Origin: Liolophura sinensis
Taxonomy: Eukaryota; Mollusca; Polyplacophora; Chitonida; Chitonidae
Direction: 5' to 3'
Assembly (NCBI RefSeq): GCF_032854445.1
Contig: NC_088297.1
Span: forward strand, 20,595,127-20,659,126
DNA length: 64,000 nt
Part shown: in pieces, positions 653 through 63,082 of the stretch
Layout: the number at the start of each line of letters is the position of its first letter
How positions within the stretch are numbered: position 1 is the first letter of the stretch
Notes under the pieces: model-generated
The model's input: only the letters and a program-made list of their open reading frames with translations
Database searches by the model: none
Told to the model about the DNA's origin: nothing
Position numbers and translations under genes: made by a program

Positions 653-2740
653 AATGAGGTGCATTTGATTAAAGAAGGTGAAAAAGTCGGAGCATCCGAG
701 GCCACATTACTGAACATGTTGAACATCTCCCCCTTCAGCTATGGACTGCTGGTCGAGATGGGTAAGTGTCCAAGTAAATAGCGTTGGGCAGAGCAGATTT
801 TGGCACAAAGACTGTTCGGTAGCTGTATTTCAGATTATCCTTGTAGAAGTCTGTCACCATTTGTCATAACTTGAATTTAAATCAATTCAGAAGTCTTTCC
901 TGATTACTCTCTGTCTCTGTATTTCAGACCATCATTCCAGAAGCCTTTCCTTTTCACTTTCCTTTTCTTTTCAGTCTATGACTCTAAAGGTGTTTCTTAT
1001 TTCAGTCTATGACAATCTAAGGAAGCGTCTCTGATCATTTTCCATTTCTCTACTTTAGTCTATGACTCTGGAAGTGCTTCTGAAGATTTTCCGTTCATAT
1101 TTCAGTCGGACTCTGAAAGTGTTTCTGATCATTTTCAATTTCTTTACTTCAGTCTATGACTCTGGAAGTGTTGCTGATCATTTTTCGTTTCTTTATCTCA
1201 GTCTATGACTTTGGAAGTGGTGCTGATCATTTTTCGTTTCTTTATATCAGTCTATGACTCTGGAAGTGTTGCTGATCATTTTTCGTTTCTGTATTTCAGT
1301 CTATGACTCAGGAAGTGTATACGAGCCAAAGATTCTGGACATCAAGGCAGAGGATTTGAGAGAGCGTTTCATGGAGGTGGGTGATCTCAATTTACAAAGC
1401 ATTCACCAGATATATCAATAACCTGAGAATAACCTGTTCAAAATGGCTTGAAATCCCACCCGAAATGACTAAAGCTTACGACGATGTACATATTACCAGC
1501 CTTGAAATTTTCCTCTTACTCATCTCAGACTTTGTAAGTTAAGATTTGAAATACTAAAAGCAGCTGATTCCATAGGAACAGGTAATAGCTAGTGTAATTT
1601 GGAGGTAGTATATTAAAGGTATTTTCCCACCTTTCTAACCACCAATTCAAATGCGTCGCACTGTCGAATGGTTGTCTGATATTTGTTTAAATAAAAAGTC
1701 TGAAAACAGTCTACACTAGACTAAGATGCCTGGTGTCGCATTTAACTCTTTTTGATTACATTTAATTACAGTTTAAAAAATGTACATGCAGAAAGGTCAG
1801 TACCATGTATGACAGTTGAATCTTCTGACTTCTTGTCTAGATAACAGGTCAAATAAAACTGTAGGCAGTTGATGGTCTAACCTAGTCAACAACTTTTCTG
1901 AGAACAGTATGGCTTAGAGTTTCTGTGAAGTTTTTTTTTTGATACAGTTTTCAAATTTTATTGTTGTACTTCAGGGTGTGCGTAAGATTGCCAGCATCTC
2001 ACTGGCCATTGGCTACCCTACTGTCGCATCTGCGCCTCATTCCATCATCAACGGCTTCAAGAGACTGCTGGCCATTGCCGTGGAAACGGACATCGATTTT
2101 GAGGAGGCTAATATGGTAAGATTTATCTCCCTTGCCAAAGCCCTCCAACGGGTCACCTTGGAAGACTTTGCCACAGTAGTTGTTTGTGTCCGATACCACT
2201 TCTCATTGGTCGCCACAACATGGCTGAAATATTGCCGATGTGGCGTTAAGCTATAGTCATTCTCCTTTTCATTGATAAATATTGAGGGTCACCAAACCAC
2301 TTTCTGTCTGACGTGAGTGCAAAATGTCTTTAAATGGACGTAATGAAATACCTGCAAAAGCACATAATGGGACACGTCACGTGATTTAAGTGACAAGGAA
2401 TGTTCTGCTGCTGCTGCTACAGTTCAACATCAGTCATCTCAGAACACACATCCGATGTAACTCGGCAAGTCACAAATGCGCGAAAATCGGCGCAGAAAAT
2501 ATAGATGTCAGATTTCAGCGAGCTAACTGAACAGGTCAGTATTTTTCAAGTCTTTTGATACCAACTACTACTTTTTCTCGCTAGGCCAAGGAGTACCTGA
2601 AGGACCCGTCTAAGTTTGCCGTGACTGCCGCTGCCGCAGCCCCCGCTGATTCCGGCGCTGCTGCCGAAAAGAAAGAGGAGAAAAAAGAAGAGCCAGAAGA
2701 AGAGTCTGATGACGACATGGGCTTTGGGCTGTTTGATTAA
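653..2740 (+). CDS. RPLP0: Large ribosomal subunit protein P0 (uL10), C-terminal exons
   Basis: P0 anchors the P1/P2 stalk on the 60S subunit and helps recruit translation GTPases. Four coding exons are visible: 653-761, 1300-1376, 1975-2115 and 2585-2740; all introns are GT-AG and the reading phases fit. Together they encode the last 160 residues. The motif [20 protein letters not shown], then [19 protein letters not shown], then an Ala-rich hinge, a Glu/Lys stretch and the terminal [11 protein letters not shown] are diagnostic; that last peptide is the shared P-stalk tail that contacts elongation factors. The first exon begins in mid-protein, so the N-terminal RNA-binding half lies before base 1. 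The intron ahead of the 1300 exon contains a tandem array of decoy copies of that exon's acceptor. No convincing snoRNA was found in the introns. Identification is from remembered family sequence and is very secure. Confidence 0.97.
965..1316 (+). repeat. 47-49-bp tandem array carrying splice-acceptor copies, RPLP0 intron
   Basis: The segment ending in ttcag|tctatgactctggaagtg recurs with AG dinucleotides at about 973, 1004, 1057, 1104, 1151, 1200, 1249 and finally 1298, which is the real acceptor. The last four units are exactly 49 bp apart; older units are 47 bp or irregular. Each unit has a pyrimidine-rich stretch, an AG and the first coding bases of the next exon (YDSGS). Confidence 0.9.
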
Positions 2741-13009: not shown

Positions 13010-13208
13010 AAATGGAACTAGAAGTGACTAATGATATCAGAGGATTCGTCTCGAAGTGAAATTGGTGTTAATTTATGCATAAGCCTAACATATTCCATTT
13101 AGAGCGAGGTGGTATGTAAATTGTGTTTTGAATTGTGTTGTGCTTTGCCCCTCCCCCCCCCCCCCGAATTTTTTTCGCAAAAAGCTATTCTCTATTCAGC
13201 TCACCAGC

Positions 13209-25200: not shown

Positions 25201-28200
25201 CAATCAACCACTTATTGTAACCAATGCCCTGGGGACAATCAACCGCTTATTGTAACCATTTCCCTGGGGACAATCAACCGCTTATTGTAACCAATGCCCT
25301 GGGGACAATCAAGCGCTTATTGTAACCAATGTCCTGAGGACAATCAAGCACTTATTGTAACCAATGCCCTGAGGACAATCAAACGCTTATTGTAACCAAT
25401 GCCCTGAGGACAATCAAGCGCTCATTGTAACCAATGCCCTGGGGACAATCAAGCGCTTATTGTAACCAATGCCCTGAGGACAATAGGAGCAGCAGAATCC
25501 TGAAAATTCTCTGTCCAAGAATGGGAGTGAACCCAGGCCTCAGGTGAGACAGTGACTGAAAGGCAAGCACCAGAACCACTCTGTCACAAATCCATATCCT
25601 GTTACAATGTTTGTCTATGTTTGCAACAAGCTTTGTCTATTCATCTCTTTCTACAATGCTTGCGTATTCTCTGGATACAACAGCGGCCCTTGTCACAATG
25701 CTTGCCTATTCTCTTGATACAACAGCGGCCCTTGTCACAATGCTTGCCTATTCTCTTGATACAACAGTGGCCCTTGTCAAAATGCTTGCCTGTTCTCTTG
25801 ATACAACAGCGGCCCTTGTCACAATGCTTGCCTATTCTCTTGATACAACAGCGGCCCTTGTCACAATGCTTGCCTATTCTCTGGATACAACAGCGGCCCT
25901 TGTCACAATGCTTGCCTATTCTCTGGATACAACAGCGGCCCTTGTCACAATGCTTGCCTATTCTCTTGATACAACAGTGGCCCTTGTCACAATGCTTGCC
26001 TGTTCTCTTGATACAACAGCGGCCCTTGTCACAATGCTTGCCTATTCTCTTGATACAACAGCGGCCCTTGTCACAATGCTTGCCTATTCTCTGGATACAA
26101 CAGCGGCCCTTGTCACAATGCTTGCCTATTCTCTTGATACAACAGCGGGCCTTGTCACAATGCTTGCCTATTCTCTGGATCCATACAACAGCGGCCCTTG
26201 TTACAATGCTTGCCTACTCTCTGGATACAACAGCGGCCCTTATCACAATACTTGCCTATTCTCTTGATACAACAGCGGCCCTTGTCACAATACTTGCCTA
26301 TTCTCTGGATACAACAGCGGCCCTTGTCACAATGCTTGCCTATTCTCTTGATACAACAGTGGCCCTTGTCACAATGCTTGCCTGTTCTCTTGATACAACA
26401 GCGGCCCTTGTCACAATGCTTGCCTATTCTCAGGATACAACAGCGGCCCTTGTCACAATGCTTGCCTATTCTCTGGATACAACAGCGGCCCTTGTCACAA
26501 TGCTTGCCTATTCTCTGGATACAACAGCAGCCCTTCTCACAAAGCTTGCCTGTTCTCTTGATACAACAGTGAGCCTTGTCACAATGCTTGCCTGTTCATC
26601 TCCTGCGACATTTCTTAAGTATTCTTTTTTTGGTAAAATGTTTGCTTACTCATCCCTTTTTACAAGTCCTTACCCTCTGTATTCTCAATCTGCAACACAT
26701 AAGCTAAAGCTGGCATCAGTTGAAGCTCAAACACCCTGCGCTCTCCACACACTGGACATGGCGGGATGGAAGTTGAGAGTGGACACCCTGCAGAATCTGA
26801 TAGAAACAGTGGCTCCCCAGCCCACTGATACCTGTCACAGGGGAGAAGTCATTATTTCTGTCATTGGTGATCAAGATGTGTGGTGCAAACAGGCAAAAAT
26901 TAAAAAATAAACACAGACCAATCTGACAGAGCCAGTAGTAACTTAATTCAGAATGTAAAACATTTATTTTTCAACCTGAGGACTTTTTAAAATTGGGGCT
27001 ATCTGTTGACCAATGTATCATAATTTGAAATTATTATGCTCTACAATTCACAACAATTTTGAACTTTGAAACTTTGGCTTAAGTAAAAAATCCTCTGTGG
27101 AACAAGAAGCTGATATTTTATTTGGACAGGTCAAAACAACTGGAAATTTCTGGAATTAAAAATTAAGTATCACACCTTAAACACTGCTCTGGACATAATG
27201 TCAAAGTCTTTTTGAACCTGTACAGCTGCTTGTCACCATGTTTAATTTCACTTTTTTCATACTTTTCACCTGAGCCTCCACTGCAAAAAAAAAACAAAAC
27301 AAAACCAAATCACAAGATGTATCCACTATTTATGAAACTGATACAAGAAATCTCCGGACAAAATGTTACATGATTATCAGTGATAAGGTGCATTCAATGT
27401 AAACACAAAAATAAGCAAAGTCTCCAAATCACAGTTCAGACCATCATCATGTTAAACAATATCCTAGGTCAAATGTGGACAAGCTAGAGACACAGGATGC
27501 AGGTTCAATCCTGACTCTGGTAGGCGAATTTGTAGATTTCTTTCCTGTGATGGTTTAGTGGGACTTAAGTGACAACAGGTGGTCATTGTCCATTGAGGAG
27601 TCATAATTTTGTTGGGGGATCGCTTTCCTGGAACATGAAATGCAAATAGGCCTTCACAACTATAAAGGGACCTTATGTTATCAAGGGTAACTTGTCAAAA
27701 TTCAGTGATTTATGCCAGGCAATCCTGTTCCCTTACCTCACAAAACCGTTTAACAACTGTTTAAGTGGAAAATTCTTGATTGCAGCATAAAAGAACAACC
27801 AAATAAATAAAAAATAAGGTAACAACCTAATAGGGTAATGTAATAATAGGTAAATAGCTAAAATATCTGTTATTTTGGACAAAATGGTAGGTAATGCTGC
27901 ATTGTACAAAATAAAATGTTAATTTTTATCTAAGCTAAAAGCACACACACTTCCTCTATGTAAGAGTTCCTGTGTGAATGAATTCTAGGAGAGGTAAACA
28001 TTCAGGGTCTAGGAGAGGTAAACATTCAGGGTCTAGGAGAGGTAAACATTCAGGGTCTAGGAGAGATAAACATTCAGGGTCTAGGAGAGGTAAACATTCA
28101 GGGTCTAGGAGAGGTAAACATTCAGGGTCTAGGAGAGGTAAACATTCAGGGTCTAGGAGAGGTAAACATTCAGGGTCTGGGAGAGGTAAACATTCAGGGT

Positions 28201-31939: not shown

Positions 31940-34900
31940 ATGGCGTCGTCACCTACCAGCGGTAAACGAAAAGCGTAAGTTTGTATTTTGTTCATTTCGT
32001 CCGACGAACGGTGATGGTGTTATCATTTCGTGTCGTGTCATTAGGCCCAGTGTCGGAGAAGTCCGCTTCGGACTGTGGCTGTCAAAAGTTCAATGAGGCA
32101 TGACGTTGAGGTCATTACCCCGTGTCCCAGTCTTAAACTGCCTGCAGGTCAAACGCAAAAGCGACATTATTTGTTTTGAAGGGAAATTATCCAAAGGTTT
32201 AATTGGTGTTATAATCGGCAGTCTAGTTCATTTGAGTTAAACGTCGAGGTCTATTTTCCACGATTTCTGATATTTACCTGCCAGAAATCGATTAAAAGAG
32301 ACCTCAACTGAAATATAACTGAACTAACTGCTGTGATGAATTTATCTGAATAACTTCTCTTGTCAAGTAATTAACCAAACTTACATATATCTGGCTCTTG
32401 TTTGAATTTAAAAATGCAAAACTATCCGCCTCATGATTTGTACACTGTTTTCACTGGAGGTCTGCCCGGTTTCCTCCCACCATAATGCCTTGCGCTGCTA
32501 CATAAGTGAAATATTGTAAAATATGGCCTTAAACTCAGTCGAAGAAATAAATTATGCCTTTAATGCCACAAATTTTTCACTCGTATGACGGTGGTCTGGT
32601 GGATGGATGGAGGAAATGGCAGTGCTAAGAAAAACCATGGATCTTTGCCAGTTATCTAACAAAGTTCTTAAATGAGTAGAAGCAGTGGCCAAAACAGTGA
32701 GTGCTTAATATGAATAGGGGCCTCGGTGGCCCAGCTGGTTAGCGCGCTAGTGCAGCGTAATGATCCAGGAGCCTTTCACCAATGCGGTTGCTGTGAGTTC
32801 AAGTCCAGTTCATGCTGGCTTCCTCTCCGGTCGTAAGTGGGAAGGTCTGCCAGCAACCTGCGGATGGTCGTGGGTTTCCCCCGGGCTCTGCCCAGTTTCC
32901 TCCCACCGTAATGCTGGACGCCGTCGTATAAGTGAAATATTCTTGAGTACGGCATAAAATACCAATCAAATAAACAAATAAATTGATATGAATACGCTTT
33001 GGTCAGGGTGAAGGGCCTAACAGTTACAGCGTAGGTGCTAGTGCTGTTATACTGAAACAGTGTTTTTAAAGGAAAATACCTCCAAAAATCAAAGTAGGTA
33101 TCACTAAATAGATCACGTGAAACTATACATAATATACTTTCATATATTTTTTTTAGGATTTTGTGAAAAGAGTTAAAGGTGCTCAAATATTGGAATTCTA
33201 AGGTGGGCTTTATGGACCATTCTATCAGAGGTTAGAAACTCTGAAATCACATGAAATTTTTTCAACTGTATTTATTTATTTATATGATTGGTGTTTTACG
33301 CCGTACTCGGGAATATTTCACTCATACAACGGCGGCCAGCATTATGGTGGGAGGAAACCAGGCAGAGCCCGAGGGAAACCCAAGACCATCCGCAGGATGC
33401 TGGCAGACCTTCCCACATACGGCATACATGCTGAACTTGAACTCATAACCACCGGATTGGTGAGGGGCTCTAGGGTCATTATGCTGCGCTAGCGCACTAA
33501 CCAACTGAGCCACGGAGGCCCCTTTTTCTACTCTTATCACGACTCTACATGTTGGGATAACTCTTTTTACCCATAAGTGAAAGATTACTGAAATAATGTT
33601 ACCCAAAATTCCTTTCTTCTGGTGAACTTCAGGGAAAAAAAATGATGTGATATCTGAGTTCCTAGATACTGTCAGCATGGCTCATAAAGCCCACCATAGA
33701 GGTGATGTGATATCTGAGTTCCTAGATACTGTCAGCATGGCTCATAAAGCCCACCATAGAGGTGATGTGATATCAGAGTTCCTAGATACTGTCAGCATGG
33801 CTCATAAAGCCCACCATAGAGGTGATGTGATATCTGAGTTCCTAGATACAGTCAATATGGCTCATAAACCCCACCACAGAGCTGATGTGATGTCAGAGTT
33901 CCTAGATATGGTCTGTATGGCTCATAAAGCCCACCATAGAGGTGATGTGATATCTGACTTCCTAGATACAGTCAATATGGCTCATAAACCCCACCACAGA
34001 GCTGATGTGACGTCAGAGTTCCTAGATACTGTCAGCATGGCTCATAAAGCCCACCATAGAGGTGATGTGATATCTGAGTTCCTAGATACTGTCAGCATGG
34101 CTCATAAAGCCCACCATAGAGGTGATGTGATATCTGAGTTCCTAGATACTGTCAGCATGGCTCATAAAGCCCACCATAGAGGTGATGTGATATCAGAGTT
34201 CCTAGATACTGTCAGCATGGCTCATAAAGCCCACCATAGAGGTGATGTGATATCTGAGTTCCTAGATACAGTCAATATGGCTCATAAACCCCACCACAGA
34301 GCTGATGTGATGTCAGAGTTCCTAGATATGGTCTGTATGGCTCATAAAGCCCACCATAGAGGTGATGTGATATCTGACTTCCTAGATACAGTCAATATGG
34401 CTCATAAACCCCACCACAGAGCTGATGTGACGTCAGAGTTCCTAGATACTGTCAGCATGGCTCATAAAGCCCACCATAGAGGTGATGTGATATCTGAGTT
34501 CCTAGATACTGTCAGTATGGCTCATAAAGCCCACCATAGAGGTGATGTGATATCAGAGTTCCTAGATACTGTCAGTATGGCTCATAAAGCCCACCATAGA
34601 GGTGATGTGGTATCTGAGTTCCTAGATACTGTCAGTATGGCTCATAAAGCCCACCATAGAGGTGATGTGACGTCAGAGTTCCTAGATACTGTCAGCATGG
34701 CTCATAAAGCCCACCATAGAGGTGATGTGATATCTGAGTTCCTAGATACTGTCAGCATGGCTCATAAAGCCCACCATAGGTTTCAAACATTTGAATGCCT
34801 TTCAAAACTCTTTAAAAAATCTGAAAAAAATGAATGAAAGTATTATGACTCATAGTTTTCAGGTATCTGTAAAATGAACCTTGCCTCATAGTTTAGCTCT

Positions 34901-37900
34901 CTTTTACTTTAAATATGATATTGTTCCACTGAAGTTTGCACTTAGCAGGTGTTTCATAAATCATACAGCAAAAACTCTTATTTATCCATTTAAATTTTTC
35001 AATTTAATACTTTTCAAATAATTTGCTGATTTTTGGGCATGTGAGTATTCTGTTGAAAGATTTTTTTTTCTCTCAAACTTTATCACACTGAAAATTATCT
35101 CAATTACTGTGAAAACCCCAAAATTGCTTAAACGGAGTGAACGCAAGCTGTTTTTAAGCAGATGACCTTAACTGTCTGTCAAGCCAACCTCCTATTGAGA
35201 AAGATGTTGATGCTTCTATGTGTGACAGTGTACAAAACACTAACTAATTTGTTCATTTCTAAAATAGATAATTAGAGTCTGTTTCTAATATCTGTTACCT
35301 TCGGTGACCTGTAATTGATTTGTTGAATTTTGTTCTTAATTACAGAGATTTGAAAGTTGTCATATTGGGAGATGCAGCTGTTGGCAAAACCACTTTGGTT
35401 CATCGCTATATCGAAGGAAAGTTTGAAGAAACAATAAGTGTAAGTGGTGAATTGCATGTTCTGGAAGACTGATAGGAAAGAACCAAAACAAAAGGTTGTT
35501 TTATTGCACTCCCTTCACAGAAGTTGATGAGGGGACATGATCATGATAGACTTGTAATATTGGGCTTTCAGGAGAGTTCTATTTTTGCATGTGGCTTTTT
35601 GTTTTTTTAAGTCTATCAACAATTGAAACATGGAGTCTCATTCCCACTGATCACCCTTGAATATTATTGTTTCCTTTACTGTTATTTTGTGTTGAAAATT
35701 GCTACGATGCTTCAGTTGCTAGAAAACATGAGATGTTGGTTCAGACTTAGCCTTGGACAGGCATTCCTAGAAATTCCCCAACTCCACCGTTCTTGTGGCC
35801 TTGGTGCCAGTAAGGCCTCAACAGCTTATTGTGTTATTGAGGTGGTCTTACATGAAGTTCCTTGACCATCACTTGCCTTCTACTAATATTTGACAATATA
35901 TATAGGTATTCAGGAATTTTAGTTTCTTCAACTCATGAAATTGAAAAATGATGTCATATAAGCGAAATATTCTTGAGTACATGTACATCAGATAAATAAA
36001 TAAATAAATGTTTCACAATATATTTTTGTTCTACAAAGTGGCACATGTCATTTTTACCTGTTAGTGTCAAGGTAGAGTGGTGGATACAACACTGTCAGGG
36101 GAAATATCATTTGTATTTGTGCTCCTTGTGATAAGGCAAGTACGGCTCACTCACTGCATACATGACACCGCTTTGGTGACCTAATGATTGGAGTGTCCAC
36201 CTTGAAATCAAGTCTCCAGACTTACCAAAGTCATACCAAAGAGTACTAGTTGCTGCCTCGCATGGCGCTCATCACTGAGAGGTTAGAGGAAGGAAACAGG
36301 TCTGGTTGACCAGGTGTCAGTATGATGTGACTGGGTGGGGTGTCATGTCTGGTGTCTTCGGCATGATATTTCAGTAGCGGCAGCGCTTAGGGAGTGTGGA
36401 CTTGCCCTACCACAAGATACAGACACCTAATGACTCCTCAGCGTCATATGACTGAAAAATTGTTAAGTATGGCATTAAATCTCAAGCATTCATTCATTCA
36501 CTGCAGACATGACGGAGTTGTCTCCCATTCTGTTGTACTACTGAACTTCGCCATAGATTTCTCAGTTTATCTGTTTGTATGTGCTACATACAAAAGTAGT
36601 AAAACACATTATTCCCTGGTTTCCATACGATGTTTACAGAGGAATAAATAACGGCCTGAGGATTTGATTTATTTATTTGATTGGTGTTTTACGCCGTACT
36701 CAAGAATATTTCACTTATATGATGGCAGCCAGCATTATGGTGGGAGGAAACTGGGCAGAACCCGGGGCAAACCCATGGCCATCTGCATGTTGCTGAAAGA
36801 CCTTCCAACCAAGCCAGCATGAGCTGGACTTGAACTCACGTTGCCCGCATTGGTGAGAGGCTTCTGGGTCATTACCCTGCGGTAGAGTGATAACCAAGTG
36901 AGCCACGGAGGCCCCCTTAAGCCTGAGGGGGCCTAAAACCTATAAAATGGATAATAAGTTTCAAGGACAGTTTTTTAATGTCCTCTCAACTGATTTGTAT
37001 GTTTTCTCTCTAACAGACCATTGGAGCCTCTTTCTTTCTCAAGCAGTGGGGGCCGTACAATGTAGCTGTCTGGGTAAGCTATAAGCTACATGTACATTTA
37101 TAACAAACATGTTTCTCACATGAACACGAGAAATCACCAACTTTGTTAACTTTTTCATCTCCGCTACTATCATTTAACTTCTTCATCATCATCACCGTCA
37201 CTGTCAGTTGACATCTTTGTCAACTTCATCATCATCCGCAGCATCATCATCAGTATCTCTATCAGTTATTTTCAACATCAGCTTCATTATCAACATGGTT
37301 ATCAATTAAATTGGTCATCTTCATCATCATGAACATCATTATTATCCACTTCATCAACATCACTCTCAGGAAAATGTCTACGACTTCGTTATCTCATAAT
37401 CACCTTCACAATCTTTTTTTTTATGTTAAAAACAAGGATAAATCCAAAGTACCATTAAGAATGGTTTAAATAGAAAGGAAATTTGTTTTTTTTATTTATT
37501 AATTTGTACATGGATAATAAAATCAGTTTCAGTCGCACAATGATAATTACAATGGCAACGACACTGTGGTGGTTTTTGAAGGTTTGATTTGAATTCATGT
37601 GAGACTTCCCTAGTCTCTGTAAGTAAGAGTATAGTTTTGCTTTTAAGGCTTTCTGTTGAATACTTATGTTCTCCACAACTTTTGGCACAGGATACAGCAG
37701 GTGAGGAGAAATACTCTGGGCTCTCGTCATTTTACTGTCGTGGTGCTGGAGCAGCCATATTGGCGTATGATATCAGAGAAGGAAAGACATTTGAGTCGTT
37801 ATGGTATGTATACATGTACATCTAATAATCTATAAAAGTTAACAAAAACATTTTCAGAAAGATAGGGATTAATGGCTAGAATAGTCAATGTGTTTGTTAT

Positions 37901-39311
37901 TTGGCAATGATCAAATGTGCCCAGCCATTCAGTAACTAAAATGAAGTAACAAGTATGATATATAATATATATAAATATTTTATATTTTAACCTGCGCAAT
38001 GATGGAATTTATTGATTTCCCGGCTGTTTGCAGGAACTTGGTGACATAAAGATGTGGCCGTTGTACCATTTGTAATCTTTCATTGAAGAATGCTTCCAGC
38101 TTCCCCCATCCATAAAACTGACAATGATTTAACTTAAATATTCCAGTTTCCTCCATCGGTGAAACCCAGGGGGATTTAACTTATGTATTCCAGTTTCCTC
38201 CATCTGTAAAACCCATGAGGATTTAACTTAAGTATTCCAGTTTCCTCCATCTGTAAAACTCATGAGGATTTACCTTGAGGGTACTAGTTTCCTCCATCCA
38301 TAAAACTCATGAGGATTTAACCTGTGCATTCCAGTTTCCTCCCTCCATAAAACTCATGAGGATTTACCTTGAGTGTTGTGGTTTCCTCGATCCAAAAAAC
38401 TCAAGAGGATTTACCTTGAGCATTCTGGTTCCCTCCATCTGTAAAACTCTTGAGGATTTTCCTTGAGGATTCCAGCTCCTTCCATCCATAAAACTCACTC
38501 CCACCCTCTATTTATTTATTTATTTAAGCGACTGTTGTTTAACATCAGGATCAAAGATTTTTCACTTACACCATGCCTGTCAGTTTTATGTGTAGAAAAC
38601 CACAGAACATTGGGAAGTTACTGAGAAACTTTTCCAGTGTGTGACGACCATCATATTTGAGAAAAATTCTTTAGTATTGCATTAAATAAGACAAATAAAT
38701 AAATTGAAACGTTTAAATATTATTTTTTTATTGCACTCTTGTGTCAAGGTTAACTAACCACACTCATGTTTCACTCATGACACATATTGAGATTCTTATT
38801 ATTTAAATTCTTGTTCAAATAATTTAAATTCTTACTTTACTCAAATATTTAAATTCTTATATAAATGATCAAATTCTCAAATAAATGATTGAATTCTAAT
38901 GTTAATATCTAGATCATTTTGTATGTATTTAAATTCTCACTTAAGTATGTAAATTTTTGTATAAGGGCACGATTCACTCCCCTGTTGGAAGCCGCTGATG
39001 AGAAGTGTGTTCGAGTTGTCGTGGGAACAAAATTAGACTTGGTCAAGCCAGGTTCAAGGGAGATAACCCTTGAAGAAGGGGAACACTTTGCCAGTGAAAT
39101 CAACGAGCACATACCTAAAGACAGGCTGAAGCACATCCCTTATTTTGAGACGTCCAGCGTGACTGGGGAAAGCGTGGAGAAAATGTTTGAGTTTATTCTC
39201 GACTATTGCCTGCCACTGACAGAAGAAATGAAGCTATCAATGGAGGGAAACACCATTCATCTGAAAGATTCAAAGACAGATACTGTTAAGAAGAATGGAT
39301 GTGCATGTTAG
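31940..39311 (+). CDS. RAB20: RAB20-like small GTPase, complete, five exons
   Basis: Rab GTPases switch between GDP and GTP states to direct membrane traffic; RAB20 is known from endosome and phagosome maturation. Coding exons: 31940-31974, 35346-35439, 37017-37073, 37691-37803, 38966-39311; phases agree, 214 residues. Visible: P-loop GDAAVGKT (20-27), switch I Thr44 in ISTIG, FFLKQWGPYNVAVW (49-62; the LKQW is typical of RAB20), G3 DTAGEE (63-68), CRGAGAAILAYD (78-89), G4 GTKLDL (120-125), G5 ETSS (161-164), and a C-terminal CAC (212-214) for double geranylgeranylation. Two departures from most Rabs: Glu67 replaces the catalytic Gln of DTAGQ, and Thr replaces Asn in NKxD. RAB20 and RAB24 are known to deviate at such sites, so slow or altered GTP hydrolysis is likely. 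The exon 5 acceptor (ttgtataag) is weak by eye. RAB24 is the alternative name, less likely given LKQW. Confidence 0.92.
32460..32555 (+). mobile_element. SINE family 1, 3' fragment
   Basis: ctgcccggtttcctcccacc, ataagtgaaatattg, tail aagaaataaat. RAB20 intron 1. Confidence 0.75.
32717..32983 (+). mobile_element. SINE family 1, near full-length copy
   Basis: Reference copy for the family. tRNA-like head with A box tggcccagctgg (32727-32738) and B box gagttcaagtcc (32795-32806), conserved middle gcaacctgcggatggtcgtg and gggctctgcccagtttcctc, 3' domain ataagtgaaatattcttgag, tail aataaacaaataaa. RAB20 intron 1, 290 bp from an inverted copy. Resembles published tRNA-derived molluscan SINEs. Confidence 0.93.
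33270..33523 (-). mobile_element. SINE family 1, near full-length inverted copy
   Basis: Antisense tail tttatttatatgattggtg through to the head in reverse (gcgcactaaccaactgagcc, acggaggcccc). Inverted relative to 32717, so the pair could fold in the RAB20 pre-mRNA. Confidence 0.93.
33644..34779. repeat. 60-bp minisatellite, 19 copies, RAB20 intron 1
   Basis: Unit gatgtgatatctgagttcct, agatactgtcagcatggctc, ataaagcccaccatagaggt, exact 60-bp period. A 7-unit block is duplicated: 33661-34020 matches 34081-34440 unit for unit, including the odd variants (gtcaatatgg, atggtctgtatgg). Open through its length on the plus strand (396-residue false frame). Confidence 0.97.
34780..35345. other. RAB20 intron 1, 3' part
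   Basis: AT-rich intron sequence up to the exon 2 acceptor; nothing else recognised. Confidence 0.4.
35949..36010 (+). mobile_element. SINE family 1, tail fragment
   Basis: gtcatataagcgaaatattc, ttgagtac, then aataaataaataaat. RAB20 intron 2. Confidence 0.6.
36165..36505 (+). mobile_element. SINE family 2, most complete copy
   Basis: tRNA-like head (tttggtgacctaatgattgg, agtgtccacctt), then aggaaacaggtctggttgac, ggtgtcagtatgatgtgact, gggtggggtgtcatgtctgg, tgtcttcggcatgat, and 3' end catatgactgaaaaattgtt ending in catt repeats. RAB20 intron 2. Confidence 0.85.
36668..36917 (-). mobile_element. SINE family 1, near full-length copy
   Basis: Antisense: tttatttgattggtgtttta to gagccacggaggccccc, all regions present. 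Lies 100 bp before RAB20 exon 3. Confidence 0.92.
37160..37400. repeat. Degenerate ATC-rich tract, RAB20 intron 3
   Basis: Interrupted runs of catcat with ttcatcatcatcacc-like pieces, an old trinucleotide repeat. Confidence 0.7.
38097..38495. repeat. About 46-bp minisatellite, 8-9 copies, RAB20 intron 4
   Basis: Unit: ttccagtttcctccatctgt aaaactcatgaggatttaac ttaagta. Copies differ at many places, an older array than the others. Confidence 0.9.
38512..38706 (-). mobile_element. SINE-like element family 3, eroded copy
   Basis: tttatttatttatttaagcg, attttt/cacttacaccatgcctgtcag, agaaaaccacagaacattgg, then gagaaacttttccagtgtgt. RAB20 intron 4. Confidence 0.55.
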
Positions 39312-52684: not shown

Positions 52685-55600
52685 TCACTGTAGGGGGCGA
52701 TCTGCGGAGGCGGTGTAGCTTTTGACCCGAGAGAAGTACAATGGTGGATATGTCTTGTTGTTGAGATCAAACTCCGCCACAGACTCCTCACCAGTTAACC
52801 TGTAATAAAAATCAGTCCACTCTGTCTAAGTGATAATTTGAATATTTGAATATATGCCTGAGTTGGTGGCATGCCATGTCTGAAGAGAAGGTGTGTACCT
52901 TTTAGCTGCTAGCTCAAACCTGATGTTAGTTCTATCCCAGTCACAGATAGAGAATTTTCTAGATTTCATACATCATCCCTGCTTACCCACCCAAGAACAA
53001 TGAGAGGGGGATATCCAAGTAATGTCAGTACACTGGGTGTCATGACTGGTGTCTGTAGCAATATAAAAGAATTACAGCAGAGACAGTAAAATCAGTGCAA
53101 CAGCTCTACTATAGTCATCCGGATTTGCATCTGACATTACTTGAGAAAAATCCCGAGTGCTGATGTGAAATGCTGTAGGTATAAATCAGCACTGTACTTA
53201 CAAGACACCACTGAACTAAAAGTGCTGCCACTGAAGCATCATGCCAAAGACACCCGATATGACAATGCACCAAGTCACATTATACTGACACCGGGCCAAC
53301 TAATCCTGTTTCCTTACTCTAACCTCTCAGAGTGTCAAGCGAGGCAGCAGCAAGTACCATTTTTAAAGTCCTTAGCATGAACCAACCCAGGTCTTTTGAC
53401 TTCGAAGCAGACACTCTCACAATTAGGCACTAAACCTGTGCTTGCGCACATGCTAGTAAGATGACAAATGGTAAAAACAAGCCTCCTATAGTCATCCTAA
53501 ACAACTTCACCTCAGAAAAATCCCCAGTGCTGTAGTGTATGCATAGACCAGCATTGTAGTTACATTTTCTGTACTATTAGTCTAAACACCGAACATTAAC
53601 AATTATAATTCAACATTTACGTTTCATAGCATCATCAATGAGGACATGGCACATGAGAATATGATGTCGTTTCCTACCTCCTCAGCTGATGTACAGAGTA
53701 ATGGGTCCATACCATCTGAGCATACTTCCTTCTCCCAGCGTTACAAACCTCCAGCTCCTAAACAACACATACCGTAGAAAGTGACTGACTGATTTACAAA
53801 TAACGCCAAATAACACGAAAATGTGGACTGTTGTTGTGAAGCTTGTGACTTTTTATTTATTTCATTGGTGTTTTACACCGTACTCAAAAATATTTTACTT
53901 ATATAACAGCCAGCATTTTGCTGGGAGGAAACTGGGCACAACCAGAGAAGACCACACAGCCATTCACAGGTTACTGGCAGACTAGTTTCTTGTCAAAAGC
54001 CTGTTATCTTTCATAATGTGTTTAAAATGTGAAGAAAAGACCAGATAATGACAAAATTATCTAACCTTTATAAAACTTTGAGAAGGGGTTATACAGCACA
54101 AACAGCAACAGTTTTATCAGATACTGAGATATCTCACCGAGAAAAAGTACTATGAAAATTTCTTTGAAAGCTGCCCCACTTTACAGACACTCTATGTAAT
54201 CTTAGGTGTCTTTTACATTATTATCCCGCAGATAAAACAACCCTTAACATGTTCTTTATGCTGATGTCACCATGAAAACTTAATACGCATGTTTCAAGGT
54301 ATGACGTTACGACGACAGAGTGAAGTCCCTTTATGATATGACGTCGTCACTTTACAGCACGGTAGGACTAATCTGGTAATTTTAACATGGGGTGGCATAT
54401 AGAATATTGAGAACTAATTGAAAGGATTACACTGATCTTCTGAATTGTGTTCAGGGGTGAATTTGCGTTCCCAATATTGCACAAAAAATGATGATCTGCC
54501 GTTACTTTGATTTAAACACGATCACTGCCATGTTAAAAGATAGGCAAGTAGCCCTACTGTGCCATAAAGTGGCGACGTCATTTTGCACCGGGACGTCATT
54601 CGGTTGTCGTAATGTGGTAACTCGAAAACTGCGTATAGGTACTCAGTGTGCATCTAGGCAGATTTCAAGCGTTCAGTGCTGAGCGTGCTCATTAGCCTTA
54701 CGAGGTGGAAGGTCCTCTCTGGTTCGTTCTGGTTAACATTGAGAAGTCGCCGCTTGTAACGAGCATAGCCAGATGTCAGGTACTCCGTCTTCACTCTCTT
54801 CAGCACTGCCGTTACCTGTGGTGTAAACAAATGAATGCATGAAATCACTACATGTAATTAATAACACAGCTTGTAACCAGCAATTGTTCGGTAGTGCGAA
54901 ACTGATAATGCATTTACTAACAGGCCAGAGATATTTATTTATTTGATTTGAGTCTTTAGGCCACACTCAAGAATACTTCGCTTATACCATAGCGGCCACC
55001 ATTACGGTGGAGGGGAAGGACAGATCCCAGAAGACTTACATGTAGACTGTGTTTGCAGTCAATATATTGAAGAAAACAATTATAAATCGGGCTTCAGAGT
55101 GTGACATCGTCGTCATATGACTGAAAAATTGTTGAGTACGACGTTAAACCCCAAGCACTCACTCACTCAGAGTGTGACATCTGTGTCTATACATTTAACT
55201 TTTCTATCTCTGATAGGGCCTTATATATAGCCTTTCTATCTATGACTTCATGCACAATATTAACCTTTCTATCCATCAGTGTTCCCACAATACGCATTTC
55301 TAGTTTCCGCTGCCTACACTGGTCTTGTCTCTCCGTGAGTACTCCACGACAGGCCTTCCCACAATACGCATTTCTAGTTTCGGTGCCTACACTGGTCTTG
55401 TCTCTCCGTGAGTACTCCACGACAGGCCTTCTCACAATACGCATTTCTAGTTTTCGGTGCCTACACTGGTCTTGTCTCTCCGTGAGTACTCCACGACAGG
55501 CCTTCCCACAATACGCATTTCTAGTTTCCGGTGCCTACACTGGTCTTGTCTCTCCATGAGTACTCCACGACAGGCCTTCCCACAATACGCATTTCTAGTT

Positions 55601-57175
55601 TTCGGTACCTACACTGGTCTTGTCTCTCCATGAGTACTCTACGACAGGCCTTCCCACAATACGCATTTCTAGTTTCCGGTGCCTACACTGGTCTTGTCTC
55701 TCCATGAGTACTCCACGACAGGCCTTCCCACAATACGCATTTCTAGTTTTCGGTACCTACACTGGTCTTGTCTCTCCGTGAGTACTCCACGACAGGCCTT
55801 CCCACAATACGCATTTCTAGTTTCCGCTGCCTACACTGGTCTTGTCTCTCCATGAGTACTCCACGACAGGCCTTCCCACAATACGCATTTCTAGTTTTCG
55901 GTACCTACACTGGTCTTGTCTCTCCATGAGTACTCTACGACAGGCCTTCCCACAATACGCATTTCTAGTTTCCGGTGCCTACACTGGTCTTGTCTCTCCA
56001 TGAGTACTCTACGACAGGCCTTCCCACAATACGCATTTCTAGTTTCCGGTGCCTACACTGGTCTTGTCTCTCCATGAGTACTCCACGACAGGCCTTCCCA
56101 CAATACGCATTTCTAGTTTTCGATACCTACACTGGTCTTGTCTCTCCATGAGTACTCCACGACAGGCCTTCCCACAATACGCATTTCTAGTTTCCGGTGC
56201 CTACACTGGTCTTGTCTCTCCATGAGTACTCCACGACAGGCCTTCCCACAATACGCATTTCTAGTTTTCGATACCTACACTGGTCTTGTCTCTCCGTGAG
56301 TACTCCACGACAGGCCTTCCCACAATACGCATTTCTAGTTTCCGGTGCCTACACTGGTCTTGTCTCTCCATGAGTACTCCACGACAGGCCTTCCCACAAT
56401 ACGCATTTCTAGTTTTCGGTACCTACACTGGTCTTGTCTCTCCATGAGTACTCTACGACAGGCCTTCCCACAATACGCATTTCTAGTTTCCGGTGCCTAC
56501 ACTGGTCTTGTCTCTCCATGAGTACTCCTACGACAGGCCTTCCCACAATACGCATTTCTAGTTTCCGGTGCCTACACTGGTCTTGTCTCTCCATGAGTAC
56601 TCCACGACAGGCCTTCCCACAATACGCATTTCTAGTTTTCGATACCTACACTGGTCTTGTCTCTCCGTGAGTACTCCACGACAGGCCTTTTCACACGTAT
56701 AATTCATTACAGGCTTACTCAGTGATTATTATACTTGTGAATACACCAAATAAGGCCTTTTTATAAGTGAATACCACATTCAGGCCTTTCTATTCATTTA
56801 TGTCCCCCAATAAGGTCCCTTTTGAGGGTACAAATGTACGATTTTTTTTTTTTTTTTTTTTTGATTGGTGTTTTACGCTGTACTCAAGAATATTTCACTT
56901 ATACGACGTCGGCCAGCATTATGGTGGGTGGAAACCGGGCACAGCCCGGGGGAAACCCACGACCATCCGCAGGTTGCTGCAAGACCTTCCCACTTACGGC
57001 CGGAGAGGAAGCCAGCATGAGCTGGACTTGAGCTCACAGCGACCACATTGGTGAGAGGCTCCTCTCCAGACATGACTGTGTCCCCCATCCATAAAACAGA
57101 TAGCCATCATATTAGTAAAAGATTTTTGAACATGACCTTAACCAATAATAAAATAAATAAAATATATAGAATGAA

Positions 57176-57218
<43 letters not shown>

Positions 57219-60200
57219 AACATATGGCATTTTCCTGCGAACACGCTCTACATCAGAGCTTTTCTACATAAGCCTGCTCCTAATAAATCACTGTTGTCTT
57301 ATTCTTAATCTAACCTTATTATCCGTCATCCTGTACACTCCCCGTAACAAGCCCTGCGGTTTGCCTCCTCTGTGTTTCAGTTTGTGTAAGATTTTTACAG
57401 GATCTTCAGGGCTTGTTATCATCAGGATCGTACCTGGTGGAGAAAGACACAGGTAAATGTCAGATTGATATCTTAAAAGGATACATCAAAAGGCACTGTA
57501 AAACAAAAGTTTGGTTTTAATGAAAAAAGACATTCCAAAACAATGAGACAAATTTTCATTTTTGAGGCATATTTTACCCATCTATCCGATGCATCATTTC
57601 GCTCAATACGTTCCAAATGCCCCATCAGAATCTCACCTTCAGGGAAGAACCTCAAATATCTGTAGTACTCCACCGTGTGCCATGCCCGGTAAAGGTTGTC
57701 CACATTCCTCTCTCCTGGACGCACGTACGATGCCTTACTGATGTAACAGCCTGCCAAAGGAAAGATAAACGTCATATCATTCATTTTTGACTGAAATCTG
57801 TCTTTTGTAGTTACTACATGCACATGTAATTGATATCCATACAAAGACTGGAGAGATGTAACTCTTCTGAAATGGAGGGGAGGTTAGGTCATGTATTCTG
57901 TATTCTCTTGTTACAATTATTATTGTTATAATTATTACGCTCATTCACATTTACCACGTATTGTGCTCTACATGTGTGCACTCACCATTGTATCTGAGAT
58001 GAGGTCTTTCAATATACATGTTTCTCCAGCCCCCATATTTTTTGCTCTTTCCAGTGTTGACTCCCCATATCCTGTCAACAACAACAAAAATTTACTTTAC
58101 TGACTTAATGTTTTGATGTGCTCATGTTTGAGAGTAACTGAATTTATCCTGATAGCTGCCGCATGTAATGGTAAATGAAAATATAGAGAACGTTAGTGTG
58201 ATGCAAGCAATGAAATTATTCTTGGCATTAAAAAACTGCTTATCCACTAAACATCCAGGACTGCAGACAGCTACATGTGTAGTCAACTGGACAACTTTCT
58301 GATTTTAAAAACTGAATTGTTTCAAAATTAACTGAAGACAAATTCGAAACAAACCCATGAAAAATGATGACATTCACTGGCACTGTGACAAGAATAGATG
58401 GCTAGAAGGAGAGCCGAGATCTTGCCTGCAACACTGCACCTATGTCATCTCAGAGAGACAGTATAAAATGCTGGTCTTGTATTCAGTTCTCCATCTCCAA
58501 GCACCTTTCTGGAAACTGGTTACAGACCACTATAAACCGAAGGCCAATGGGTTCCCATGTTTAATTTATTTTTCTTTATTTGATTGGCGTTTTAATCAGG
58601 CTTCAAGAAATTCCTCAGCAACAATCTAATAAAACACTTGTACATAAACATTTAATGATGCATTTATAGGAATGGGGAGAAACGAAATGGAGAAATTGGA
58701 CAAGACTCACTTGAGACAGGCACGTCTCCAGATCTCATCATCACGGGCACACAGGTAAAAGCCTCGACACACCTGGAAAAGAAAAACATGGGAGTAGTAT
58801 TAAGTGGACAGTGGTTAAAACACTGAAAAAAAAAAATTGACTGTATGTAGAAATCTGCTTTAAAATAAATTCTTTTACTTGGATGACTTCTGCCATGGTT
58901 ATTCTGTGTTTTCGTAACACAGAGATTGCTTCCCTTTTCATGGATTATCCCCCTGAAGGTGTCAGTTCAACTATCCAATGCTATTAGCATTTGGAAGTAC
59001 TGGTGTGATGGAATTTAAACAACCACAATGATTAACTGTGACTAATCTGCTTGCAAAATTTCTTGTAAGGTTATTTACTTCTGAATTATTGCATTTACTC
59101 CTGTGCTTGGAGAAACTGACAAAGTAAACGCTAATATTTTCCTTAGTCCCATATATTTTAATTCTGAAAAGAAAGACAGATACCTACCATCAAGGAAAGT
59201 AACCCATGTATTATGAAAATAGGTAATTAAAGGATGGAGGAAAGTATGTGACAAACGGTTGAATCTGTCTGCACTGGATGAGATCACCTGACCTCATGGG
59301 TGAAAACGTCAGGACAATGCTATTTTGTACAAGACGGAGCATGATGTCAAAGTGGTTTATTGCTTTGGGATTTGCAGTTGCAAACACCAACGCCTTCTAT
59401 CCAATCAATGCTGCACATTTGTTTATTTAAATTGGTGTTTTATACTGTACTCAAAATTATCCATCATCAGACAAAATACTGCTTTTTTCATTAAACAGAA
59501 TTGGCCACGTGGCGAGGCGTGTATATACCCAAATCCTACAGTTGATGTCTGCCGTCATATGTCTGCCGACTAAGTTATTTCCCTTGGTTAAGTTGTAAAA
59601 ACAATGGTGACATCGCTGAAGCAATTCACCTATTCATCTGTTTTTTGTGCTGTTACATTCATTACATGCTTACTCAGTATTAGGATATGGAAATATTGAC
59701 ACCATATATTTCCATATCCTACCACTGAATAATCATGCAACTAATAATACTTCACTTATACGACCGTTGCCAGCATAATGGTGGGAGGACACGCTAGCTG
59801 TACAATGCACTCTGTCCTTCAACTTACCATTGCAACATTCTCCAGGGCTATCATGTCAAGGTCATTAGTGATGACCCATTTGAAGATGTAGACCAGAACT
59901 TCCACAGGTAGGACAGATATGTGGACAGACTGAGAAAAAAAACAAAAAAAAACAAATCAGGGAATAAAAAATTAAGGGCAAATACAGGCCATAGGCAGAA
60001 CAGATATGTGAGCAGACTGAAATAAAACATTTAAACAGAAAGTTCATGAGAATAGGATTCCATGCATTGGGCTAATGCTTTTCAGCATTTTGTTGCCAAA
60101 TCATCTAATTTTACAGGAAGGAGTCTTTATGCCTATACTTTGATTTTCTCGCTCATCTCATCAACTCCACCTGCTACGTGTATAAGCCATATTTGCATTT

Positions 60201-63082
60201 CAGAATGCACGCCACTACACTCGACAAAACAGAGCAGCCGGAAGTTAGAAGTATGAGGCTGTAGCTGCTTTTCACAGCCAATAAAATGGCAACATTTCAA
60301 AGTAACACTTTCTATTTGGCATTTTCAGTCAATTTTATTTGGCATTTTCTCCATTATTTTTACTAAAAGTTACTGCGAATGGGGACACGATTTCAAATGC
60401 ACAATTTCAATGGTACAGATATGTAGTGTAGTAAGCATGCTGCCACTGGGTTAAAGCATAGATGGATGAGTGAAAATTAGCACCCAGCACTTAGCTCCTG
60501 TGGAATGTGAAAGTGACTTAGTGCTCAGGACCCAAAGAATTCTAGTGTCCAGTCTTTAAAAAACTTAAGGCTAATAAGGCAATGATAATGTTATACATAC
60601 CTTCCTTAGCAGAATGAATACTACACAAAGTGGTGGCATTACACTTCCTTCTATAAGACCAGGATTACCAATGGACACTGTACCAATCTTTCTAAAAGGA
60701 AATACCTCAAATTCTTACCACCCCACAAGGCCTTCTAAGAAACATCTCCTCGCGATCTATACCCTGTCAACACCCCTAATCTTCACTGTTTCCAGTCAGA
60801 CTGACAGATAGTCATGGACTGTAGCTTTGTGAACTTCACCCTGTCGCAGCAACACCTCCCCCCCCACCCTCGATCTTACCCTCTGTTCTCAGTCAAACTG
60901 ACAGATAGCCATGGGCTCCACCTGTAGCAATATGAATACCCTGACACAACCCTCACTGATCTTACCTTCTGTTCCCAGTCAAACTGAGAGATAGCCTTGG
61001 ACTCCACCTGTAGCAATATGAATACCCTGTCACAGACCCCCAGATCTTATCCTCTGTTCCCAGTCAGGCTGACAGATAGTCTTGGGCTCCACCTGTAGCA
61101 ATGTGAATACCCTGTCACAACCCCCCAGATCTTACCCTCTGTTTCCAATCAGGCTGACAGATAGTCTTGGGCTCCACCTGTAGCAATGTGAATACCCTGT
61201 CACAGACCCCCAGATCTTATCCTCTGTTCCCAGTCAGGCTGACAGATAGTCTTGGGCTCCACCTGTAGCAATGTGAATACCCTGTCACAACCCCCCAGAT
61301 CTCACCCTCTGTTCCCAATCAGGCTGACAGATAGCCTTGGGCTCCACCTGTAGCAATGTGAATACCCTGTCACAACCCCCCAGATCTTACCCTCTGTTCC
61401 CAATCAGGCTGACAGATAGCCTTGGGCTGCACCTGTAGCAATGTGAATACCCTGTCACAGACCCCCAGATCTTACCCTCTGTTCCCAATCAGGCAGACAG
61501 ATAGCCTTGGGCTCCACCTGTAGCAATGTGAATACCCTATCACAGACCCCCTGATCTTACCCTCTGTTCCCAATCAGGCTGACAGATAGTCTTGGGCTCC
61601 ACCTGTAGCAATGTGAATACCCTGTCACAGACCCCCAGATCTTACCCTCTGTTCCCAATCAGGCTGACAGATAGTCTTGGGCTCCACCTGTAGCAATATG
61701 AATACCCTGTCACAGACCCCCAGATCTTACCCTCTGTTCCCAATCAGGCTGACAGATAGCCTTGGGCTGCACCTGTAGCAATGTGAATACCCTGTCACAG
61801 ACCCCCAGATCTTACCCTCTGTTCCCAATCAGGCTGACAGATAGCCTTGGGCTCCACCTGTAGCAATGTGAATACCCTGTCACAGACCCCCAGATCTTAC
61901 CGTCTGTTCCCAATCAGACTGACAGATAGTCTTGGGCTCCACCTGTAGCAATATGAATACCCTGTCACAGACCCCCAGATCTTACCCTCTGTTCCCAATC
62001 AGGCTGACAGATAGTCTTGGGCTCCACCTGTAGCAATATGAATACCCTGTCACAGACCCCCAGATCTTATCCTCTGTTCCCAGTCAGGCTGACAGATAGT
62101 CTTGGGCTCCACCTGTAGCAATGTGAATACCCTGTCACAACCCCCCAGATCTCACCCTCTGTTCCCAATCAGGCTGACAGATAGCCTTGGGCTCCACCTG
62201 TAGCAATGTGAATACCCTGTCACAACCCCCCAGATCTCACCCTCTGTTCCCAATCAGGCTGACAGATAGCCTTGGGCTCCACCTGTAGCAATGTGAATAC
62301 CCTATCACAGACCCCCTGATCTTACCCTCTGTTCCCAATCAGGCTGACAGATAGTCTTGGACTCCACCTGTAGCTTCATGAACTTAGCCACCAAATCCAG
62401 TTCTTCCTCATCTTCTTCGATCACACTGGTAACAGAGAAGATCACAAAATGTTCTATTAGATTTAAATAAAACCTAATGAAGTGGATTTGATGTTATTGT
62501 TTTTTTACTTTATATATTTATTTTTTTCTTTTGATTAGTAATAGCATTGCACAGAAGAATATATCACAAACATGAAGATTATTACATTTATTGTTGGAGG
62601 AAACAAGAGTGTCTTTAGTAAACCACCATCATTTGCCCTGTACCTGAAAATTCTCCTGAATTACAGCCACAACCAAATCAGCTGAAGTTGGATTCAAACC
62701 TGTAACCTTGGACACAAAACCTAACCAAAAAACCCTGGTTAAAAAAAGACTGAGCAGGATTTGATCCTGTCCATGTGAGAAAGTTTAAGTTTGCAAATTA
62801 GAATATTTGTCATGCTACTGAAGTCACAATTATGACTTTGGCCCTTTTCCTTTGGTCAGTGTATTTCAATAATATTGCCAATCTTTATCATTAAAAAGAA
62901 AAGAAGACAACGTACTGATGTTTTTCTTTCAACAGTTTCATTTAATCACCAATAAAACTTACACAATCATGTCATTGTTTTCGTTGTCTTTTTTTTTGGT
63001 TTCTTTTGTAATAAAATTAGCAACACTATATGTAAATAGCACACTCACCAGCCTTCCACAGAGTTTTCACTCTCTTTCCTCT
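52685..63082 (-). CDS. FBXO9: F-box only protein 9, last ten exons (5' part outside window)
   Basis: FBXO9 is a substrate receptor of SCF (SKP1-CUL1-F-box) ubiquitin ligases, known to target TTI1/TELO2. Exons in gene order: 63049-63082, 62326-62425, 59828-59929, 58711-58772, 57986-58071, 57637-57750, 57315-57433, 54702-54815, 53678-53757, 52685-52799; all GT-AG, phases consistent, 926 nt. Visible: an acidic stretch [11 protein letters not shown]; the F-box, [20 protein letters not shown] through [20 protein letters not shown]; then [64 protein letters not shown], and the C-terminal [17 protein letters not shown], which align in order with human FBXO9. The N-terminal TPR-like region is upstream of base 64000. 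The intron after the 62326 exon holds 17 partial copies of that exon; another intron holds a 74-bp array. The GCYISK to VEYYRY block is nearly invariant in the family. Confidence 0.95.
53185..53442 (-). mobile_element. SINE family 2, antisense copy
   Basis: aaagtgctgccactgaagca, tatactgacaccgggccaac, aacccaggtcttttgacttc, gaagcagacactct. Matches 7620-7852 and is antisense to 36165. In an FBXO9 intron. Confidence 0.75.
53850..53987 (-). mobile_element. SINE family 1, partial copy
   Basis: Antisense tail and centre (tttcattggtgttttacacc, cagccattcacaggttactg gcagac). FBXO9 intron. Confidence 0.82.
53988..54701. other. FBXO9 intron, nothing recognised
   Basis: Unique-looking intron sequence between the 53757 and 54702 exons. 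Confidence 0.4.
54928..55015 (-). mobile_element. SINE family 1, 3' fragment
   Basis: tatttatttgatttgagtct, cactcaagaatacttcgctt, ccattacggtgga. Confidence 0.7.
55085..55172 (+). mobile_element. SINE family 2, 3' fragment
   Basis: gtcgtcatatgactgaaaaa ttgttgagtacgacgttaaa ccccaagcactcactcact, identical in kind to the end of the copy at 1-305. Confidence 0.85.
55265..56690. repeat. 74-bp minisatellite, about 19 copies, FBXO9 intron
   Basis: Unit cacaatacgcatttctagtt tccggtgcctacactggtct tgtctctccatgagtactcc acgacaggccttcc. Two main variants (tttccggtgcc and ttttcggtacc/ttttcgatacc) mostly alternate, a 148-bp dimer pattern. No similarity to the flanking exons. Confidence 0.97.
56838..57064 (-). 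mobile_element. SINE family 1, nearly complete copy
   Basis: T-run, gattggtgttttacgctgta through gctggacttgagctcacagc, gaccacattggtgagaggct; tRNA head cut off. FBXO9 intron. Confidence 0.9.
57174..57220. repeat. AAAT microsatellite
   Basis: About 11 pure tetranucleotide units. Confidence 0.95.
58562..58626 (-). mobile_element. SINE family 1, tail fragment
   Basis: ttatttttctttatttgatt ggcgttttaatcaggcttca agaaattcc. Confidence 0.55.
58773..59827. other. FBXO9 intron, SINE scraps only
   Basis: Two small family 1 scraps at about 59418-59462 (taaattggtgttttatactg) and 59748-59800 (cttcacttatacgaccgttg). Otherwise plain intron. Confidence 0.45.
59930..60784. other. FBXO9 intron, plain part
   Basis: AT-rich intron with an A-run near 59935-59957; nothing recognised. 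Confidence 0.4.
60785..62325 (-). repeat. 85-bp minisatellite made of partial FBXO9 exon plus splice donor, 17 copies
   Basis: On the minus strand each unit reads gtggagcccaagactatctg tcagcctgattgggaacaga gg|gtaagatctgggggtctgtg acagggtattcacattgctacag. The first 42 nt repeat the last 42 nt of the exon 62326-62425 and the next bases repeat its donor. Units are 85 bp, with ctccacctgtag (plus strand) at about 60927, 61002, 61087 and then every 85 bases to 62277. Most keep GT (gtaag or gtgag); about three (near 61049, 61219, 62069) read gataag instead. The outermost copy (60785-60845) keeps extra exon sequence corresponding to the AAGTTCA..AAGCTACAG region. Confidence 0.95.
62510..62735 (-). mobile_element. 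SINE-like element family 3, eroded copy
   Basis: tttttcttttgattagtaat, ggaggaaacaagagtgtctt, tagtaaaccaccatcatttg, then ttggattcaaacctgtaacc, a B-box-like region in reverse. FBXO9 intron. Confidence 0.55.

Follow-up and report, generated by a model that had tools for sequence, protein, structure and literature searches.

Tandem repeats at exon-intron boundaries of FBXO9 and RPLP0 in the chiton Liolophura sinensis, compared with amphioxus mirages

Tandem repeats that run across exon-intron boundaries, known as mirages, have been reported in amphioxus at both 5' and 3' boundaries (PMC3087553, PMC3902484). The reported cases are Adh3 and the globin genes BflGb6 and BflGb9, with similar repeats in PGBD5; the AG/GT signals are kept in many but not all of the units, the edge units lie outside homogenisation, and splicing is reported as normal (PMC3087553, PMC3902484). 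We analyzed a 64,000-nt stretch of the genome of the chiton Liolophura sinensis (contig NC_088297.1, positions 20,595,127 to 20,659,126, forward strand; hereafter the window), in which a minisatellite with an 85-bp period lies on the minus strand directly downstream of an FBXO9 exon, within the following intron. This array is very probably a donor-side mirage that grew from a duplicated exon-intron boundary and is spliced out with its intron.

The FBXO9 units resemble the amphioxus mirages in keeping many splice signals and in having divergent edge copies. They differ in the host, a chiton, in the genes concerned (FBXO9 and RPLP0, which carries a second array) and in unit length, 85 and 49 bp against the reported 150-160 bp in BflGb6, 157 bp in BflGb9 and 10-72 bp in Adh3. 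The copy number is also different, about 17 units at FBXO9 compared with 3 and 6 in two reported BflGb6 haplotypes. A second likeness is to the variable internal tandem repeats described in human segmental duplications, which are also minisatellites at exon-intron boundaries and can affect splicing (PMC2812944); as described there, those repeats arise inside exons of young paralogs, whereas the FBXO9 array lies in an annotated intron. The array further recalls the Rogers model of intron gain by tandem duplication of an AGGT-bearing segment (as cited in PMC3087553), since the repeated FBXO9 exon piece is flanked by AG and GT. It departs from that model as cited in lying inside an annotated intron, with no new intron in use. 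Potato RdRp is reportedly a case of intron gain by tandem duplication. Among molluscs, excerpts of an abalone gene paper describe a minisatellite with 27-bp units that lies within an intron, and mention no array at a boundary (PMC6905558). The FBXO9 and RPLP0 arrays thus belong to a known kind, for which a limited literature search, conducted mostly at title or listing level, found no earlier mollusc case.

The FBXO9 boundary array

When the exons recognised in the window were joined, 270 of 271 residues were identical to the L. sinensis F-box only protein 9-like (P0074, 431 amino acids), confirming the gene name proposed by an earlier reading made from the sequence alone (the sequence-only reading); the single mismatch was a misplaced exon edge in the joined set. 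An additional short exon was placed at 53677-53757, and a piece of the gene matched the Pfam F-box only C-terminal family. We did not find residues 1-123 of P0074 in the window. Among the matches listed (120 of 370) there was no other close FBXO9, the next match showing 56% identity. An amphioxus origin of the window, considered because of the literature on mirages, was rejected on these protein matches, which indicate a chiton.

Tandem Repeats Finder (TRF) placed the array at 60872-62374, with a period of 85, 17.7 copies and 94% matches, the exon end being counted as the first copy. Its score of 2582 leaves no doubt that the boundary array is real. By exact search for the word GCTACAG we positioned 17 units downstream of the exon, in agreement with the number proposed before; the uniform length of 85 bp held for units 1-15, and not for units 16 and 17 (86 and 103 nt) or for a degraded 18th fragment beyond unit 17. 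Each inner unit consists of 49 nt of exon end and 36 nt of intron, and the authentic exon end forms copy 0 at the edge of the array. The exon is 100 nt long and ends in phase 0, and the 42-nt part of the units lies in frame and mostly reads VEPK(T/A)ICQPDWEQR, as had been proposed.

According to the sequence-only reading, each unit repeated just the last 42 nt of the exon and was preceded by an acceptor that ended exactly at the start of the segment. The comparison with the exon did not bear this out. The GCTACAG of the units is itself exon coding sequence, AAG CTA CAG (K-L-Q), so the homology runs to 49 nt, and the outermost copy carries a further 11 exon-like nt upstream of GCTACAG (AAGTTCACAAA versus AAGTTCATGAA, 9 of 11 matching). 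The length of 42 nt arose because a chance AG in coding sequence was taken as the start of the segment, and the agreement between acceptor and segment start is circular, since this AG had defined the cut. Upstream of GCTACAG the inner units are not exon-like (4 or 5 of 12 nt match). The proposed origin from a partly duplicated exon end, which the more exon-like outermost copy had suggested, was supported.

In units 1-15, 46-48 of the 49 exon-derived nt agree with the exon, and units 16-18 are decayed. Comparison of all pairs among units 1-15 gave identity only for 1-2, 1-12, 2-12 and 3-15, and the intron segment of unit 9 is an exact match to that of copy 0. Such identities are what unequal exchange would be expected to leave. 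Tandem arrays can be mis-sized in assemblies. We give an assembly artefact practically no credence: 12 different sequences occur among units 1-15, the copies at the far end are decayed, and the published assembly, whose source was later given the name L. sinensis (PMC12441733), is described as PacBio HiFi at 14x (PMC11068029). A wrong copy number is possible, whereas an invented array is not likely.

The repeated unit at FBXO9 therefore spans a boundary, the edge copy is the authentic one, the inner units are homogenised and the edge copies divergent, and many but not all units keep the splice dinucleotides. A decayed single copy of the acceptor boundary of the next exon was also observed in the same intron, 87 nt upstream of the authentic boundary; it matches 22 of 27 exon nt, and none of 2000 Markov resamples was as good.

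Splice signals and the fate of the units

The sequence-only reading had regarded every unit as a potential 14-codon exon with a gtaag donor. Fourteen of the 17 units do keep the GT of the donor; in units 3, 13 and 15 gtaag is replaced by ataag (GT to AT), and unit 17 carries an in-frame TGA. Only 13 of 17 are consequently intact as hypothetical cassettes, with both splice dinucleotides and an open frame. If such units were spliced in, the copy number of the array would determine protein variants just before the F-box. We consider this very unlikely, even though 42 nt would keep the frame and most units have a donor, an AG and no stop. Tandem cassette exon arrays are exemplified by Dscam. The FBXO9 array is like them in the repetition of exon-like units, and unlike them in that the units lack proper acceptors and any sign of protein-level constraint.

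Splice-site strength was evaluated with matrices trained on FBXO9 and RPLP0 sites of this window only, 11 donors and 12 acceptors; units were scored with 10 donors and 11 acceptors, without the array-bearing sites. Among all GTs of the window, the two unit donor sequences found most often (together in 12 of 17 units) ranked at percentiles 99.1 and 99.7, where the genuine donors span percentiles 83.1 to 99.9. Of the unit acceptors, the more frequent type (12 of 17 units) ranked at the 69th percentile among AGs of the window and, in a leave-one-out comparison, below 11 of the 12 genuine ones; the better-scoring type (5 of 17) fell below 10 of the 12. An AG inside the FBXO9 exon that is unused in the annotated protein scored like the units (-1.5 versus -1.6). 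The weakness of the acceptors, already suspected before, was also evident from their pyrimidine share, 0.53 compared with 0.59-0.94 in the small training set of 12 genuine sites, and the one unit scored contains a single branch-like motif, 11 nt from the AG. Judged with the small training set, this 69th-percentile acceptor does not give the units the competent 3' splice site that tandem cassettes would carry.

The distance from donor to acceptor between adjacent units is 43 nt in 16 of 18 gaps (44 and 61 nt in the other two), compared with about 203-2499 nt for the FBXO9 introns in the window. We had considered this spacing as an absolute barrier to splicing, and dropped the idea since human 43-nt G-rich introns are reported as spliced, among them that of ESRP2, which is ultra-short and G-rich with a poor 3' site (PMC4463651). 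The unit introns share these features: they are 43 nt long, within the 37-65 nt range of such ultra-short introns, have G as the commonest base (14 of 43) and end in a poor 3' site, and this resemblance speaks for the cassettes. They differ from the described human introns, for which splicing has been shown, in that the array lacks the enhancer motif described for them: at no more than two mismatches, CAGGGGCTGGG had no match in the array and 17 in the window.

The proteins also argue against inclusion of the units. P0074 joins the two exons directly, QPDWEQR being followed by SVHIS, with no 14-residue insert, and inspection by eye of 17 aligned database FBXO9 proteins (P0074 and 16 others, all of them protein models or predictions, not reads) revealed no doubled segment. 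Cassette use as first proposed was not supported. The sequence-only reading had named beforehand the absence of a synonymous excess among units, together with RNA-seq showing only the direct junction, as what would show the array to be inert. We ran the first of these comparisons on the 42 exon-derived nt of units 1-15 and found seven variable sites, six replacement and one silent, where 18-25% silent would be expected at random. The units accordingly show no synonymous excess and no protein-level constraint, although with so few sites the comparison is a weak one. The expectation that inert or rare use was the likeliest option was upheld by these results.

We propose that the array was seeded by a tandem duplication of the donor-side boundary of an FBXO9 exon, and that it expanded and was homogenised through unequal exchange or slippage, the copies being confined entirely to the following intron. 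The spliceosome would pick the true donor at 62325, on the 100-nt exon bounded by its own upstream acceptor (exon definition), and would join it to the acceptor at 59929, so that the array leaves with the intron. The unit donors, although good sequences, would find no competent partner, because what looks like their acceptor is copied coding sequence. Use of a later donor in place of the true one would extend the exon into a stop (TGA at codon 7 when the frame is continued past the true donor), which would probably lead to decay of the mRNA. Most likely, the array adds nothing to the protein.

Several observations weigh against this proposal of an array removed with its intron. The direct exon join appears in a database protein model, and the splice scoring rests on 11 donors and 12 acceptors from the window only. 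One genuine acceptor scored lower than the FBXO9 units, and an earlier matrix ranked the unit acceptors higher, at the 75th and 85th percentile. The 14 intact unit donors leave room for leak splicing. Nucleotide diversity (pi) was lower in the exon-derived 42 nt (0.039) than in the intron-derived 36 nt (0.065); the difference in variation was not significant by site permutation (p = 0.13, 49 versus 36 columns), and 7 of the 49 columns are invariant by construction because the units were located by the word GCTACAG. In human segmental duplications, variable boundary repeats are described as activating cryptic splice sites and forming novel introns, with alternative transcripts (PMC2812944).

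The RPLP0 array and the surrounding window

A second array, of 49-bp period, was found in RPLP0 on the plus strand. Its units consist of the intron end together with the 5'-most nucleotides of an RPLP0 exon, and the true acceptor at 1300 is the edge copy, as the authentic boundary is at FBXO9. The RPLP0 array is an independent second case and the mirror image of the first, on the acceptor side, and both arrays have the structure that defines mirages. The coordinates of the two systems are listed in Table 1.

Seven decoy acceptors precede the true one, with their first exon-side bases at 975, 1006, 1059, 1106, 1153, 1202 and 1251. They scored at the 94th to 99.5th percentile, against 99.3 for the true acceptor, and four of the seven share with it a CTGAT branch-like motif 24 nt upstream. 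Eight strong acceptors stand in tandem here, and the annotated one comes last. Extension of the exon from any of the seven decoys runs into a stop. The L. sinensis uL10 protein (P0196, 315 amino acids) joins VEM directly to VYDSG, so that the annotated proteins of both host genes, P0074 and P0196, show the direct exon join (protein models only).

Table 1. Features of the FBXO9 and RPLP0 boundary arrays (positions in the window)
Feature	Position	Strand	Basis
FBXO9 exon, source of the repeat; last 49 nt are copy 0	62326..62425	-	Translation; identical to part of P0074
Donor-side boundary minisatellite, units 1-17 and degraded 18th	60785..62325	-	TRF, GCTACAG search
True FBXO9 splice donor, gtaagatca	62317..62325	-	Sequence; exon join in P0074
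Outermost degraded copy, AAGTTCACAAA upstream of GCTACAG	60785..60836	-	Sequence comparison
Next FBXO9 exon, around F-box start; direct join in annotated protein	59828..59929	-	Translation, P0074
Decayed single copy of acceptor boundary of exon 59828-59929	59989..60027	-	22/27 exon nt match
RPLP0 acceptor-side boundary array, 49-bp period	970..1318	+	TRF 992-1318; first copy at 970 by eye
True RPLP0 exon at array edge	1300..1376	+	Translation; direct join in L. sinensis uL10 P0196
Upstream RPLP0 exon, start approximate	653..761	+	Translated search

The strong RPLP0 decoys, each leading to a stop, are in keeping with another explanation of the FBXO9 array, in which its units act as decoy donors: some transcripts would extend to a later unit, meet a stop and be degraded, and the copy number would slightly tune the dose. 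The common unit donors do score as genuine ones, the extended FBXO9 frame reaches a stop within the first intronic segment, and for duplicated human genes, repeats at boundaries are described as accompanying alternative transcripts (PMC2812944). The amphioxus mirages, however, are reported as not disturbing splicing (PMC3087553, PMC3902484), and the tuning of dose is deduced, not observed. We regard such tuning as unlikely, while a low-level decoy effect at FBXO9 is possible. A broader proposal would hold that boundary-seeded arrays are general in this minisatellite-rich chiton genome and that strong decoys, by leaking into transcripts with stops, make array length a heritable rheostat for genes including FBXO9 and RPLP0, while in-frame inserts of 14 residues would rarely enter FBXO9 through the 43-nt G-rich introns; taken as a whole, this seems quite improbable.

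Returning to arrays that are tolerated at boundaries and spliced out, the presence in 64 kb of mollusc DNA of two independent cases, on the donor side in one gene and on the acceptor side in the other, suggests that mirages are not special to amphioxus. The arrays offer natural tests of how the spliceosome chooses among like sites, with 15 donors at FBXO9 and 8 acceptors at RPLP0, and boundary arrays of this kind are candidate raw material for intron gain.

The window is rich in tandem arrays. After 60 TRF rows were merged by hand (leaving aside three whose periods were 1, 2 and 4 bp), 24 places with arrays covered 20.5% of its 64 kb; in the published repeat catalogue, the class 'Other (simple repeat, microsatellite, RNA)' is given as only 0.08% (PMC11068029). 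We considered an excess of arrays at splice boundaries and rejected it. Two of 31 boundaries placed by hand (FBXO9 19, RPLP0 6, RAB20-like 6) lie in arrays, compared with 6.4 expected (binomial P 0.033), a shortage rather than an excess. No special targeting is needed, because the arrays touch fewer of the placed boundaries than random placement would. Chance duplication together with tolerance would suffice to explain the two boundary arrays.

Other arrays in the window include 35 bp x 56 at 23520-25484, 42 bp x 22 at 25653-26597 and 74 bp x 19 at 55282-56689. A 403-amino-acid stop-free frame at 33626-34837 (plus strand) runs over a 60-bp x 19 array and encodes a 20-residue repeat that is DVISEFLDTVSMAHKAHHRG-like; its openness means little, because the 60-bp unit is a multiple of three. 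Rfam and tRNA scans of the window found nothing. A RAB20-like small GTPase gene occupies 35347-39311 (plus strand), with four exons, recognised by their likeness to the human sequence, none of which is in an array. The gene at 12089-13056 (plus strand) had no Pfam match for 12089-13006. Its product is 95% identical to one database protein and has homologs in many molluscs, a few of which are named methyltransferase type 11.

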